A stretch of DNA of 52,962 nucleotides, from assembly GCF_004138395.1 (NCBI RefSeq), contig NZ_PRLM01000004.1, forward strand, positions 1 through 52,962, read 5' to 3'. Below the pieces are notes generated by a model. The model saw only the letters and a list, made by a program, of their open reading frames with translations, was not told the DNA's origin and did no database searches. Shown one piece after another: positions 6,492 to 52,260 of this stretch. Each line of letters opens with the position of its first letter. Positions within the stretch are counted from its first letter, which is position 1. This DNA comes from Candidatus Nanosyncoccus alces. GTDB taxonomy: Bacteria > Patescibacteriota > Saccharimonadia > Saccharimonadales > Saccharimonadaceae. Position numbers and translations under genes: made by a program.

Positions 6492-7727
6492 ATGGATAAC
6501 GACAAGCGCTTTGTTACTGGCTTAGATGTGGGTACGGAAAATATCCGCGCCGTCATTGCTTCGGTGGATAAAGACGGCCACTTAGCCGTAGTCGGCTACA
6601 ACGAAGGTAAATCCGCCGGTATGCGAAAGGGTGTTCCCGCTAATCTTGCCGGTCCTGCCAGCGCTATCGACAAAATGCTTGGTGAGGCTGAACGCATGGG
6701 TGGCTATGATGTCCGCAACGCTTATGTTTCTATTAATGGCTCCAGCATTTTATCTACTCGTACCGAAGGTATGATTGCCGTTGGCACGGTAGAACACGAG
6801 ATCAACGGGGAAGATTTGGATCGCGTTGAAGATGTCGCCGTATCTGGTCGTATCCCAGCCAACCGTGATGTTCTGGATGTAGTTCCGCTAGAATATGCCC
6901 TGGACGGCCAAGGGGGAATCAAAGACCCACTCGGTATGTCTGGTGCCAGGTTAGAAATGCGCGCTTGTGTGGTCTCCGCTCTCACTCCGAATTGTGAAAA
7001 TCTCAAAAAAGCCACTGCCGCCGCTGATGTCCAGGCCGAAAGGCTAGTTCCTAGCGTAATTTCCGCCGCCAAAGCTGTGCTCTCTGACCGCCAAAAGGAA
7101 AACGGCGTTGCCGTAATAGATATGGGTGCCGCTACAACTTCGGTTGCGGTCTACGAAGAGGGTGACCTACAATACGTTGGCGTGGTTCCAGCCGGATCCA
7201 ATAATGTCACCAATGACCTCGCTATCGTCCTTGCCATTGATCCTAGCCTTGCCGAGGAGATCAAACAACGTTTTGTTACTGGCAATTTCGATACCGAAAA
7301 ATCTCCCGTCATCAAAATTGGCCGGGAAGGCAAAGATGAACGTGTTTTCGACCGCAAAGAAGTAGAAGAGGTCGTAAAAGCCCGCCTCGACGAAATATTT
7401 GGCGAAATTCGTAAAAAACTCAAGGCTGCCAAATATGACCAGCGTTTGCCGGAGGGAATTATCTTAGTAGGCGGTGGTGCCAAGATGCGTGATATCGATC
7501 TTTTTGCTAAAAAATCCCTTGAGGCTGCCGTCAAAATCGGCACCCCGAAAGGGCTTGGTGGCGTGTCTGACGCCATAGAAAAGCCCGAATTTGCCACTGC
7601 CGTAGGCCTAGCTATGCTTGCTGCCGAAGAGGGCCAATACACTCCAGTTGGTGGCAAAAAGGCTAAAAAGGGCCTTAAAATGCCAAAAACGCCCGGTTTG
7701 CTGAAAAAACTCTTTTCAAAATTCTAG
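6492..7727 (+). CDS. ftsA: Cell-division protein FtsA
   Basis: A 411-aa actin-fold protein that tethers FtsZ to the membrane. It shows the ATPase phosphate motifs GLDVGTENIRAVIA (near 10-23) and VIDMGAATTSVAVYEEG (near 207-223), and the adenosine motif ILVGGGAKM (near 325-333). The C-terminus is a basic amphipathic helix (GLLKKLFSKF), the usual FtsA membrane anchor. The ATG lies 6 nt after TATAAT and has no Shine-Dalgarno sequence. ftsZ follows, but a Fic gene on the other strand separates them, so they are not co-transcribed in the usual way. Confidence 0.94.
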   Translation: MDNDKRFVTGLDVGTENIRAVIASVDKDGHLAVVGYNEGKSAGMRKGVPANLAGPASAIDKMLGEAERMGGYDVRNAYVSINGSSILSTRTEGMIAVGTVEHEINGEDLDRVEDVAVSGRIPANRDVLDVVPLEYALDGQGGIKDPLGMSGARLEMRACVVSALTPNCENLKKATAAADVQAERLVPSVISAAKAVLSDRQKENGVAVIDMGAATTSVAVYEEGDLQYVGVVPAGSNNVTNDLAIVLAIDPSLAEEIKQRFVTGNFDTEKSPVIKIGREGKDERVFDRKEVEEVVKARLDEIFGEIRKKLKAAKYDQRLPEGIILVGGGAKMRDIDLFAKKSLEAAVKIGTPKGLGGVSDAIEKPEFATAVGLAMLAAEEGQYTPVGGKKAKKGLKMPKTPGLLKKLFSKF

Positions 7728-7754
7728 TTTCCGCCAACTTTACTAGAGAGTTGA

Positions 7755-8324
7755 TTACTCGTCAAATAACCTATGAACATCGTACTCAGACTGCTCTTCG
7801 TAATCGTATGAAGATTGAATCCCCTTCATATAGACTTCTCGGTCATCGATGTCTTGCGTCAGAGCTGATTCTAGTAAGGTCCTAATTTCTAGATCATTAA
7901 TTGGCGAACGCTCCATTGCTGAAAGATATTCTTCTTTACCAATTTTGGACCAATCTACGCACTTACCTAGTCTTTTTTTCAAGATTTGGTCTAACCAAAT
8001 ACGAGTTGCCCTACCATTACCTTCACGGAATGGATGCGCCACGTTCATTTCCACATATTTTTTTACGATTTCATCAAAACTATTCTCTGGCAGGTTATCA
8101 ATTGTTTTTAGCGTGTCGCTTAAATATATTACTGGCGCAAAACGAAAGTTTCCCTTAGCTAAGTCAACATCACGAATTCGCCCAGCGAAATCAAAGACAT
8201 CTTGAAAAAGGAATCGATGAATCTGCTGTAGCCCCTTGGTGGTGCCCACCTCAAACTCATTAATTCTGCCACTGTCATACAACTCCACGGCGCGCTTTTT
8301 GCTAGCCAGCTCTTCGTTTTTCAT
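7755..8324 (-). CDS. Fic-domain AMP-transferase, class III-like
   Basis: A 189-aa Fic protein. The active motif HPFREGNGRATR spans residues 97-108, with catalytic His97 and a complete HxFx(D/E)GNGRxxR pattern, so it is predicted to move AMP from ATP to a target protein. The C-terminus has S172-Y-D-Y-E176-E, matching the SxxxE core of the C-terminal inhibitory helix of class III Fic proteins. The usual following Gly/Asn is Glu, so autoinhibition by Glu176 is inferred. It lies opposite to and between ftsA and ftsZ. Its promoter is a TATAAT (8331-8336, minus strand) 6 nt before the ATG. No separate antitoxin gene is visible. The target is unknown. Confidence 0.9.
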   Translation of the reverse strand: MKNEELASKKRAVELYDSGRINEFEVGTTKGLQQIHRFLFQDVFDFAGRIRDVDLAKGNFRFAPVIYLSDTLKTIDNLPENSFDEIVKKYVEMNVAHPFREGNGRATRIWLDQILKKRLGKCVDWSKIGKEEYLSAMERSPINDLEIRTLLESALTQDIDDREVYMKGIQSSYDYEEQSEYDVHRLFDE

Positions 8325-36522: not shown

Positions 36523-36857
36523 GGGAGCCTGAAAGGCGACCGCTTTTCATAAGAGGAAAGTCCGGGCAACGCAGAGCAGGGTAGTCGCTAACAGCGACCG
36601 TCCGTAAGGATAGGGAAAGTACCACAGAAACAATACCGCCCCTTTAGGGGTAAGGGTGAAAAGAGTGAGGTAAGAGCTCACAGCGCGCTGTAGCGATACG
36701 GTGCGGAGGCAAACCCTACCTGTTGCAAGGAGCACTATACACCTTCGCTCGAGGATGTGCGCTCACCGCTAGAACGTTATAGCAATGTAACGTCAAGATA
36801 GATGGTCGCCAACCATATATTATATATGGTTACAGAACCCGGCTTATAGACGGCTCA
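36523..36857 (+). ncRNA. rnpB: RNase P RNA
   Basis: Catalytic RNA of RNase P. Family signatures are GAGGAAAGTCCGGGC near the 5' end and ACAGAACCCGGCTTATAG near the 3' end. The 5' GAGCC (36525-36529) pairs with GGCTC (36852-36856) to close helix P1. The length, about 335 nt, and layout fit bacterial type A. It has its own TATAAT and is followed by a terminator. Confidence 0.95.
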
Positions 36858-36863
36858 ATATCA

Positions 36864-36891
36864 AAATCTCTCCCGAAAGGGAGATTTTTTG
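36864..36891 (+). terminator. Terminator after rnpB
   Basis: TCTCCC-GAAA-GGGAGA stem followed by TTTTTT. Confidence 0.8.
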
Positions 36892-36908
36892 ATATTTTGA
36901 AAATATGC

Positions 36909-36914
36909 TACAAT
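36909..36914 (+). promoter_or_regulatory. Promoter of the pseudoknotted leader
   Basis: TGCTACAAT (extended -10). The predicted start near 36920 coincides with the first base of the closing helix. Confidence 0.55.
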
Positions 36915-36919
36915 GTAAA

Positions 36920-37039
36920 TGTCTACATCAAATAATATATTTTTCGAACTTGCCTAAGCAGAGAACGGCAACCGTTCGAAAAAATGATAGCTTAGGCTCA
37001 TTATTTGGTGTAGACAGCCGAGAACGGTTGTCGTTTTTT
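36920..37039 (+). ncRNA. Pseudoknotted leader or sRNA with terminator
   Basis: Closing helix: 36920-36936 with 37000-37016 (17 pairs, one G-U). Inside, TTTTTCGAAC (36940-36949) matches GTTCGAAAAA (36974-36983), and GCCTAAGC (36952-36959) matches GCTTAGGC (36990-36997). These are interleaved, so both together would make a pseudoknot. GAACGG/CCGTTC (36963-36968 with 36972-36977) competes with the first pair. The 3' end GACAGCCG-AGAA-CGGTTGTC (37013-37032) plus a T-run is a terminator. An alternative pairs 36965-36976 with 37023-37034. I do not recognise it. Confidence 0.65.
37013..37039 (+). terminator. Terminator at the end of the leader
   Basis: GACAGCCG pairs with CGGTTGTC (one G-U) around AGAA, followed by GTTTTTT. 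It shares GACA with the closing helix of the leader, so the two may be alternatives. Confidence 0.75.
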
Positions 37040-37078
37040 ATGTAAGCGACGAAATAATAATAAAATAAAGGAGGTAAA

Positions 37079-37774
37079 ATGAACCACAATTCATTTCCAA
37101 GTGGGGAGCAAACCCCTGCCCATCAAGATGACGGGGATGCCGCCGAATTTCCATCATTCGAAGAACATATTAAATCAATGGATACCGAGAATCTAACACG
37201 AATAGATAACAAAATTGGCCGAGATATCGCAAAAAATTTGGACACAGAAAAAATTAAATTCGACAGATCCTTAGAGCAAACATCAAAGTCTCCAGATTAC
37301 AGAAAAGATAAAGATGGGAACGTTTACTTTGGTAAGATTGGCGATACTATTGTCTTCGGAGAAACAAAACATACTCGTAAAGTGGATGATTTTCCCCACG
37401 AGACCAATGAAGAAGATTATGATAACTCCGTCGTTGGTATCAGAACTGATGACGGCAATCAATACTATATCTCGCAAGGAGTTTTTCTGGATCATGGCAA
37501 TGACAAAAAAGTAGATTTATTGAAAAGAAGACAAGACGACCCGAATTATCGCTTTCCAAGCATTACCATAGGGGAACCGCTGCCGTACAATTCGATCGCC
37601 AGGGATATACCAGAAGGAACAAATATTGGTATCGTTACAGAAGTAGTTTGCCTTGGCGAAGCTCCCTCAACGTCCCCAAACGAAAACAAAACCAAAAAGG
37701 ATATTCAGGAGTATATTGCTAACGAAATCAAACAGAGCGAAACTGCAAAGCGAATCAGGCATATACAACATTAA
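37079..37774 (+). CDS. Soluble acidic protein of unknown function
   Basis: A 231-aa hydrophilic protein with no signal peptide or membrane helix. Residues 35-61 (DTENLTRIDNKIGRDIAKNL onward) match a segment of the surface protein at 15330. The middle part (about 85-130; FGKIGDTIVFGETKHTRKVDD) and DGNQYYISQGVFLDHGND suggest beta strands. It has one of the best Shine-Dalgarno sequences in the window (AAAGGAGGT, 7 nt before ATG) and lies behind the pseudoknotted leader, so expression is probably regulated. Confidence 0.78.
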   Translation: MNHNSFPSGEQTPAHQDDGDAAEFPSFEEHIKSMDTENLTRIDNKIGRDIAKNLDTEKIKFDRSLEQTSKSPDYRKDKDGNVYFGKIGDTIVFGETKHTRKVDDFPHETNEEDYDNSVVGIRTDDGNQYYISQGVFLDHGNDKKVDLLKRRQDDPNYRFPSITIGEPLPYNSIARDIPEGTNIGIVTEVVCLGEAPSTSPNENKTKKDIQEYIANEIKQSETAKRIRHIQH

Positions 37775-41326: not shown

Positions 41327-41680
41327 TGGTGGAGCTGGGGGATACTGCCTCCCCGTCCGTACTGTCACAGGGTTGTGATTCTACGCACATAGTTTTCTGT
41401 TTTATCTTGGCACACATTGCTAGCTGCAGAAAACGAAACTAACAATAGCCATAGCTAATTTTCGAATTATTTCTCGCTAATTAAATAACCTTATCTCCGT
41501 TATATAATAATCCTAGCCCTACGGAGTCTTGAACCAGAACCAGCCTATAAATAAATTAGGCATAAGCCGGCATGTATGCAACATGCGCGGTTTTTGTGTT
41601 TTTTACACTTATTAATACTTACGGTATTCAATCGGCACGCCTCACAACTGTTAACAATTCGTCTAAGCTTTGTCAGCCCC
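41327..41680 (-). ncRNA. ssrA: tmRNA
   Basis: A 354-nt transfer-messenger RNA that rescues stalled ribosomes. The 5' end GGGGCTG pairs with 3' CAGCTCC (one G-U), followed by ACCA. GAGGCGTGCCGA near nt 39-50 matches the conserved tmRNA 5' segment. The tag frame ends in AYMPAYA-stop; the stop TAA is at 41556-41558 (minus). Read back, the frame is VKNTKTAHVAYMPAYA, with the resume codon uncertain (GTA at nt 75 to GCG at nt 93). The T-stem GGGGA/TCCCC closes an unusual loop GGCAGTA. The -10 is TATAAT at 41691-41696. Confidence 0.9.
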
Positions 41681-49692: not shown

Positions 49693-52260
49693 ATGGAAGA
49701 CGATAAGAGTAAAAATAACCAAAATGTAGACCCTGAAGAATTATCTTCCGAGGACCGTAAGCTTGAGCGAGCGCCCTCGAGTGTGTCCGAGGGAGATGAT
49801 TCTGAAGGGTCTAACACTATTGTTGATGGTATCGAGCGCCGTGGCGTCGAAAACACCATGGAGGAATACTTCCTGAAGTATTCCATGTCCGTTATTATTG
49901 ACCGCGCACTCCCTGATGTCCGCGACGGCCTCAAGCCCGTAAACCGCCGTATTCTCTACACGATGAATAAAAACGGCTGGAAAGCCCCCCATGCTACAGT
50001 GAAATCCGCTCGTATCGTCGGTGACGTCATGGGTAAATACCACCCACACGGCGACTCGTCTATCTACATGGCAATGGTTAACCTCGCCCAGCCTTGGAAA
50101 ATGCGCTACACTCTGATAGAAGGCCAGGGTAACTTCGGTTCAATGGATGGCGACGAACCAGCCGCTTACCGTTACACCGAGGCTCGTATGGATAAGGTTG
50201 GCGCCGAACTTCTCACTGATATAGAGAAAGACACCGTAGATTTCCGCGACAACTTTGACGGTACCGAACAAGAGCCAGTAGTATTGCCGGCCGCTTTGCC
50301 AAACATTCTCTTAAACGGCCAGATGGGTATCGCCGTAGGTATGGCTACCAATATCCCACCGCACAACCTTGGCGAGCTAGTAGATGCCACCGTTGCCCAG
50401 ATAGATAACCCGGAAATTGCCCTAGATGAACTAATGAAATACGTCAAAGGCCCAGATTTTCCAACCGGTGCCGAAGTTTACGGGGGCGCCCCAATGCGCC
50501 AAGCTTACGCCACCGGTAAAGGCTCTGTCGTTATCCGCGCCGTCACTAATATTGAAGAGCGCAAAAATGGCCGCTACAACATCGTAGTTACCGAAGTTCC
50601 TTACGGCATGAGTAAAGAGGGCTTTATCGAGAAAGTTCGCGAGCTTGTCTTATCTAAAAAATTAGATCACATTGCCGATGCTCGTGACGAATCCGCCCGT
50701 GGTAAAATCCGCATTGTAGTAGAACTCAAAAAAGATGCCTTCCCAAAAAAGATTTTAAATCAGCTCTACAAGATGACTGGCTTGCAGACCGCTTTTCACT
50801 ACAACATGCTAGCTCTAGTAGACGGTGTTCAACCGCGTATCTTAGGACTAAAGGAAATCTTAGGTGAATTCATCAAGCACCGCCAAAAGGTTGTCCGGCG
50901 CCGTACCGAGTTTGAGCTGAAAAAAGCCAAAGAGCGCGCTCATATCTTGGAAGGTTTGAAGATCGCTCTAGATAATATTGACGAAGTTATCAAAGTCATC
51001 CGTTCATCTTACGATGACGCCGATAAACAATTGATGAGCAAATTTGGTCTTTCAGAAATCCAGGCCAACGCTATCTTACAGATGCAACTTCGCCGTTTGC
51101 AAGGTCTAGAGCGCGACAAAATTGAAGAAGAATTAAAGCAGCTTCATGAGCTTATCGCCACGCTCGAAGCTATCCTTGCCGACGAGAACGAAATTCTACG
51201 CGTCATCAAGGAAGAGCTTATCGCCCTCAAAGATAAATATGGTGACAAGCGTCGTTCCAAGATTATCAATCACGAAGTTGGTAAATTCTCCGAAGAAGAA
51301 CTCATCCCAGAAGAGGAGAGTGTTATTTTGCTCACCTCCGAAAACTATATGAAGCGCGTACCACAGACCGATTTCCGTAAACAGAATAGAGGTGGCAAAG
51401 GTAAGCGTGGTATGACTACCAAAGAAGAAGACGTCATCGCTCAGATTCTTACTGCCAATTCGCACGACTTCTTACTTTTCTTTACCAACCAGGGAAGATT
51501 GTTCCGCATGAAAGCTTACGAAGTGCCCCAGGCTTCTCTCGCCGCCAAGGGTACTGCCGCTGTTAACATGCTCAATATGCACCCAGAAGAGAAAATCACT
51601 GCCATCATCAAACAGGGTGACGCTGGCGCTAACGGTTACCTCTTCATGGCTACCAAGAAGGGCACTATCAAAAAATCTGCAATCAAAGACTTCTTTAACG
51701 TCCGTAGCAACGGTCTGATTGCCATTAAGCTAGACGAAGGTGACGAACTCAAATGGGTCCAAGAAACCACCGGCGAAAACGACATCGTTATTAGCACCTC
51801 TGCTGGCCAGGCCACTCGGTTCAACGAAAAAGAAGTTCGCGCCATGGGTCGCGCTGCTATGGGAGTGCGTGGTATGCGCCTCCGCCCGAAGGACGAAATT
51901 GTCGGTATGGATGTAGTAACTGATCCTAAGCAAAAGCTCATCGTGGTATCCGCCAACGGTTACGGCAAAGCCACCCTAGTTTCTAACTTCCCACCACACA
52001 AGCGAGGCGGTGTGGGCATTAAGGTAGCTGCTGTTACCGAAAAGACCGGCCCGATTGTGGCAGTTCATACTCTAGATCCACTCGCCAAAGAAGTAATTAT
52101 GATGTCTACCAAGGGCCAGGCTATCCGCGTAGCGATGAAAGAGATCCCGACGCTCGGCCGTGCTACCCAGGGTGTTCGCATCATGAAAATGAGTGAAGGC
52201 GACAGCGTAGCTTCCATTGGAATAGTTTTGCCAGAAGAAGAGCAAGATAAACCGGCTTAA
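49693..52260 (+). CDS. gyrA: DNA gyrase subunit A
   Basis: An 855-aa cleavage subunit. A polar, acidic N-terminal extension of about 45 residues precedes the winged helix; the active Tyr is in [10 protein letters not shown]. The C-terminal beta-pinwheel carries the GyrA-box-like [10 protein letters not shown], which marks gyrase rather than topo IV. The QRDR loop reads [10 protein letters not shown] (117-126): Ser122 matches E. coli S83 and Met126 replaces D87. AAGGAG precedes the ATG. Confidence 0.96.

Follow-up and report, generated by a model that had tools for sequence, protein, structure and literature searches.

RNA leader of the attenuator type, predicted to fold either into an intrinsic transcription terminator or into a pseudoknotted structure that disables it. 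Situated at the start of the mRNA of a 231-aa protein gene. Member of a structured-RNA family of the Patescibacteria, of which 115 distinct copies were collected, in front of different, mostly membrane-protein genes. Almost all copies are from Saccharibacteria, with further copies in other Patescibacteria families and in two viral contigs. The leader is best interpreted, with good confidence, as a leader-peptide-less transcription attenuator with a pseudoknotted antiterminator; termination and read-through are inferred without transcript data. No Rfam 15 family gives a credible match over the element at gathering or permissive thresholds, and no description was found in the open-access literature searched, although this does not prove that the family has not been seen before. 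The window, the whole stretch analysed, comprises 52,962 nucleotides of contig NZ_PRLM01000004.1 (assembly GCF_004138395.1, Candidatus Nanosyncoccus alces, genome of 727 kb).

Structure of the leader

Located between the RNase P RNA, which has its own terminator, and the 231-aa gene. Followed by genes assigned, from the sequences, to ribosomal proteins L28, L20 and L35 and IF-3 on the other strand. The window also carries a tmRNA gene with a modest Rfam score (77.5 bits). Folding energy of positions 36918–37042 is −41.7 kcal/mol, against −22.4 ± 3.3 for shuffled sequences (z = −5.8; 0 of 200 shuffles as good). The five pairings of the preliminary description, namely a closing helix (P1), two interleaved helices (P2 and P3), a competing hairpin and a terminator (T) sharing bases with the closing helix, are confirmed. 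The competing hairpin AACGGCAACCGTT lies in the loop. The key element was missed in that description: the P2 loop (L2) pairs over 18 nt with the terminator loop, the terminator 3′ half and the U-tract (P4). P4 and T are mutually exclusive. The central competing helix is P4, not the local hairpin. The reading as a switch-like leader or regulated attenuator of an unnamed class is supported.

Features of the leader and its surroundings in the window
Position	Strand	Feature	Observation
36524–36861		RNase P RNA	
36860–36893		terminator of the RNase P RNA	
36910–36915	+	−10-like box TACAAT	preceded by TG (extended −10); expected transcription start about 36920
36920–36936	+	P1, 5′ arm	pairs 37000–37016; 17 nt, 94% complementary
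36940–36949	+	P3, 5′ strand	pairs 36974–36983, 10/10; proposed anti-antiterminator, accessory
36952–36959	+	P2, 5′ arm	pairs 36990–36997, 8/8
36960–36977	+	L2, antiterminator strand in the P2 loop	family consensus AAAnGGGCanCC; pairs 37022–37039 (P4)
36974–36983	+	P3, 3′ strand	overlaps the last 4 nt of the P4 strand
36990–36997	+	P2, 3′ arm	
37000–37016	+	P1, 3′ arm	last 4 nt (GACA) are also the start of the terminator stem
37013–37020	+	terminator stem, 5′ strand (T5′)	terminator 37013–37032, followed by GTTTTTT
37022–37039	+	P4, 3′ strand	terminator loop, T3′ (37025–37032) and U-tract (from 37034)
37068–37075	+	Shine-Dalgarno (SD) site	AAAGGAGG
37079–37774	+	controlled gene, 231 aa	no Pfam match; conserved N-terminus with PSFEEH motif
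41327–41680	−	tmRNA gene	

Distribution and covariation of the family

A nucleotide search of 100 relatives gave mostly short chance hits and three clear homologues, one of them in another family. Further copies were added by a terminator-based pattern search. In the resulting 16-sequence alignment, ranked by complementarity alone, the best helix is P4 (191 of 192 cells paired). Covariance model R2 hits 108 of 394 genomes of the family at E ≤ 0.001, with up to six copies per genome. Model R3 hits 30 of 380 genomes spread over the phylum, including many other families. The leader in the window scores 109 bits against the family models R2/R3 (E 2e-21 in the genome), but is one of the model's own sequences. 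Named records that match the terminator pattern and pass an architecture detector (P1, P2, P4, T and T-tract geometry only) are mostly Saccharibacteria, some labelled Nomurabacteria or Patescibacteria. In this genome the detector finds five good copies (score 108 or more): in the window, on contig C2 near 77425 (−), on C5 near 10800 (−), and on C6 near 228365 (+) and near 50288 (−). One weaker candidate (81) is also found; no hits on the reversed genome, one hit of score 78 on a Markov-resampled genome. The 115 copies remain after removal of duplicates and two false ones.

A second subfamily has a nearly invariant terminator GCGACTAAGTAAATAGTCGC and a matching loop, but freely varying P1 and P2. 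Occurs in about 11 genomes of the genus (loci L271–L287), including the C2 copy near 77425 (−) and the C6 copy near 228365 (+) of this genome. Most of it is missed by R2 and R3; it was found by the detector and a pattern search. Pattern hits in Arenibacter, SAR324, Bacillus and others failed the detector, and R3 found nothing in 14 of 16 such genomes. Two termite-gut MAGs labelled Oscillospiraceae had hits (loci L251, L288–L291), one near a mobilisation gene and a DNA methyltransferase, possibly owing to binning contamination or transfer out of Patescibacteria. One viral copy (L269, about 7500–7980, IMGVR_UViG_3300028591_000632) lies on a phage contig with tape measure, major head and portal proteins; it is compact, with almost no P1–P2 linker and hence no P3, and is accompanied by a 114-aa gene, reading against the structural genes like a moron. 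Locus L268 is a second viral copy. Viral hits L267 and L270 show only the terminator-like pattern.

In an alignment of 84 sequences fitted to P1 and P2 only, P1 is paired in 98.9%, P2 in 90.9% and P4, not used by the model, in 99.7% of cells. Changes on both sides are present in 494 cells, against 138 ± 13 in shuffles; sliding the partner by one to three columns reduces pairing to 35–43%. P4 carries a G·U wobble at one position (alignment columns 118/246) in 79 of 84 sequences, exactly where the terminator strand has A-U, so L2 mimics the terminator 5′ strand but with one weaker pair; this looks like tuning of the competition. The terminator itself covaries: 6.04 of 7 pairs, against 5.48 ± 0.04 (0 of 2000 permutations). 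The 115 copies were collected partly by a detector that demands P1, P2, P4 and T; the unbiased counts are those of the 16- and 84-sequence alignments and of the terminator test. At the orthologous RNase P – leader – gene – L28 locus of two relatives (L076 and L077) the leader is kept, P1, L2 and T are nearly unchanged, and P2 is replaced by a different, fully complementary sequence. The preliminary description's own test, compensatory change and retention of the repeats in relatives, is thereby passed.

A TATAAT-like hexamer (5 of 6 or better) ends a median 6 nt before P1 in 106 of 115 copies, against 26% in shuffles, so the 5′ arm of P1 begins at the expected +1. An SD-led ORF starts within 150 nt in 108 of 115 copies, a median 38 nt after the U-tract begins. 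The downstream genes share no pathway: small membrane proteins, pilin-like and surface proteins (by inspection of the sequences), TM2 and bacterial-PH domain proteins, many unknowns. Among products of 100 aa or more, 78% have a predicted membrane segment, against 32% of background ORFs (crude hydropathy, background from this genome only). The only two of 632 ORFs of this genome with an N-terminal FEEH[MI]-like motif both follow a copy, although the motif was chosen after seeing them. Recurs behind copies in other species; an N-terminal PSFEEH[MI]-like motif is shared by the window gene, L210:5492–6082 and downstream genes in L285, L272, L275 and L184, the rest of the proteins being unrelated. 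Between the window gene and its orthologue only about the first 40 residues align (67% identity); the remainder has been exchanged, as in polymorphic secreted proteins.

Proposed mechanism and alternatives

The nascent RNA is proposed to form P1, and P2 inside it. L2, single-stranded, then captures the loop, 3′ half and U-tract of the terminator as they emerge, so the terminator hairpin cannot form and RNA polymerase reads into the gene. If L2 is unavailable, being bound in P3 or by a factor yet to be found, the terminator forms at the cost of about 4 bp of P1 and transcription stops. T5′ overlaps P1 by 3–5 nt in most copies; T costs P1 about 8.6 kcal/mol and is worth only about −1.2 net, while P4 leaves P1 intact and its helix averages −26 kcal/mol (pseudoknot entropy cost and folding kinetics not included). 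P4 extends a median of 4 nt into the terminator loop and 2 nt into the U-tract, so it can start pairing before the terminator stem is complete. Read-through is therefore inferred to be the default, and termination to need L2 to be blocked. The thermodynamics alone would make the leader nearly always read-through, so the off state needs a trigger, which was not identified. P3 covers the end of L2 that meets the terminator loop. Own J12/L2 pairs are more complementary than mismatched pairs across the family (13.45 against 11.29 ± 0.28; 0 of 5000 permutations). However, P3 is clear in only a minority of copies, is absent in the orthologues L076 and L077, and has no room in the two viral copies. 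P3 is at most an accessory lock, and a trans factor is likely for others.

ALTERNATIVES. A metabolite- or ion-binding riboswitch, in which P1 and the P2/P3 H-type pseudoknot form an aptamer whose ligand stabilises P3 and frees the terminator, is unlikely. Outside the switching strands almost no nucleotide is conserved (strong conservation only at AAA, GGC and C of L2, GG..GTC and the T-tract), P3 is absent in many copies, the downstream genes share no pathway and Rfam gives no match. A stand-alone terminated small RNA, its 3′ end locked into the P2 loop for stability and the downstream gene incidental or with its own promoter, is slightly less likely still. It would agree with the own promoter and terminator and with inclusion of the U-tract in P4. 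However, the SD-led ORF, often 20–30 nt after the start of the U-tract and in the same orientation in every case, leaves little room for another promoter, and the coevolved antiterminator is pointless if termination is constitutive. A 5′ mRNA-protecting structure with constitutive read-through is very unlikely: P1 starts at the expected +1 and the P1/P2/P4 fold is the computed ground state, but the retention by covariation of a terminator stem conflicting with P1, with a U-tract in every copy, is not explained. A MITE-like mobile element, suggested by inverted ends, several copies per genome next to unrelated genes and two viral copies, is largely refuted, since conservation continues past the repeats into the terminator, promoter and SD keep fixed positions, P1 and P2 differ wholly between copies with pairing kept, copies within this genome are not near-identical, and copies nearly always point at a gene.

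Almost nothing is known about gene regulation in Patescibacteria; according to a 2024 review, the mechanisms governing differentiation between host-attached and free cells "remain completely unknown" (PMC11665869). The family gives a genome-readable regulon enriched in envelope proteins and a mechanism testable in cultured, transformable Saccharibacteria. The loop-to-terminator antiterminator would also be an unusual, portable expression platform. It is possible, but only tentatively proposed, that the family is a phylum-wide one in which a hairpin loop, through a short toehold in the terminator loop, knots up the terminator, a third strand (P3) or a factor covering the toehold. It would serve as a shared switch for envelope proteins and for PSFEEH-motif proteins, possibly exported effectors, during the host-attached versus free life stages, and would have been captured by phages.

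Comparison with known systems

T-box leaders: similar in the terminator/antiterminator choice in a 5′ leader; differ in that no T-box sequence (0 of 115 copies) and no Rfam T-box match are found here, and the copies are not in front of synthetase or amino-acid genes. H-type pseudoknot riboswitches (preQ1-II, SAM-II): similar in the closing helix and pseudoknot in a short 5′ leader; here no conserved aptamer core, no Rfam match, unrelated downstream genes, and the pseudoknot partner is the terminator itself. RAT/antiterminator elements of the BglG/LicT family: similar in that the antiterminator overlaps the terminator and competes with it; RAT appears to be a local hairpin stabilised by a PTS-controlled protein, while here the antiterminator is long-range and pseudoknotted, and no protein is known. 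Leader-peptide attenuators of the trp type: similar in the alternative pairings over one terminator, 1:2 (here P3), 2:4 (here P4) and 3:4 (here T). Differ in the leader peptide, an SD-led leader ORF being present in only 5 of 115 copies and absent from the copy in the window, in the antiterminator, which here is a hairpin loop pairing across a closing helix and including the U-tract, and in the controlled genes, here mostly for membrane and unknown proteins instead of biosynthesis.
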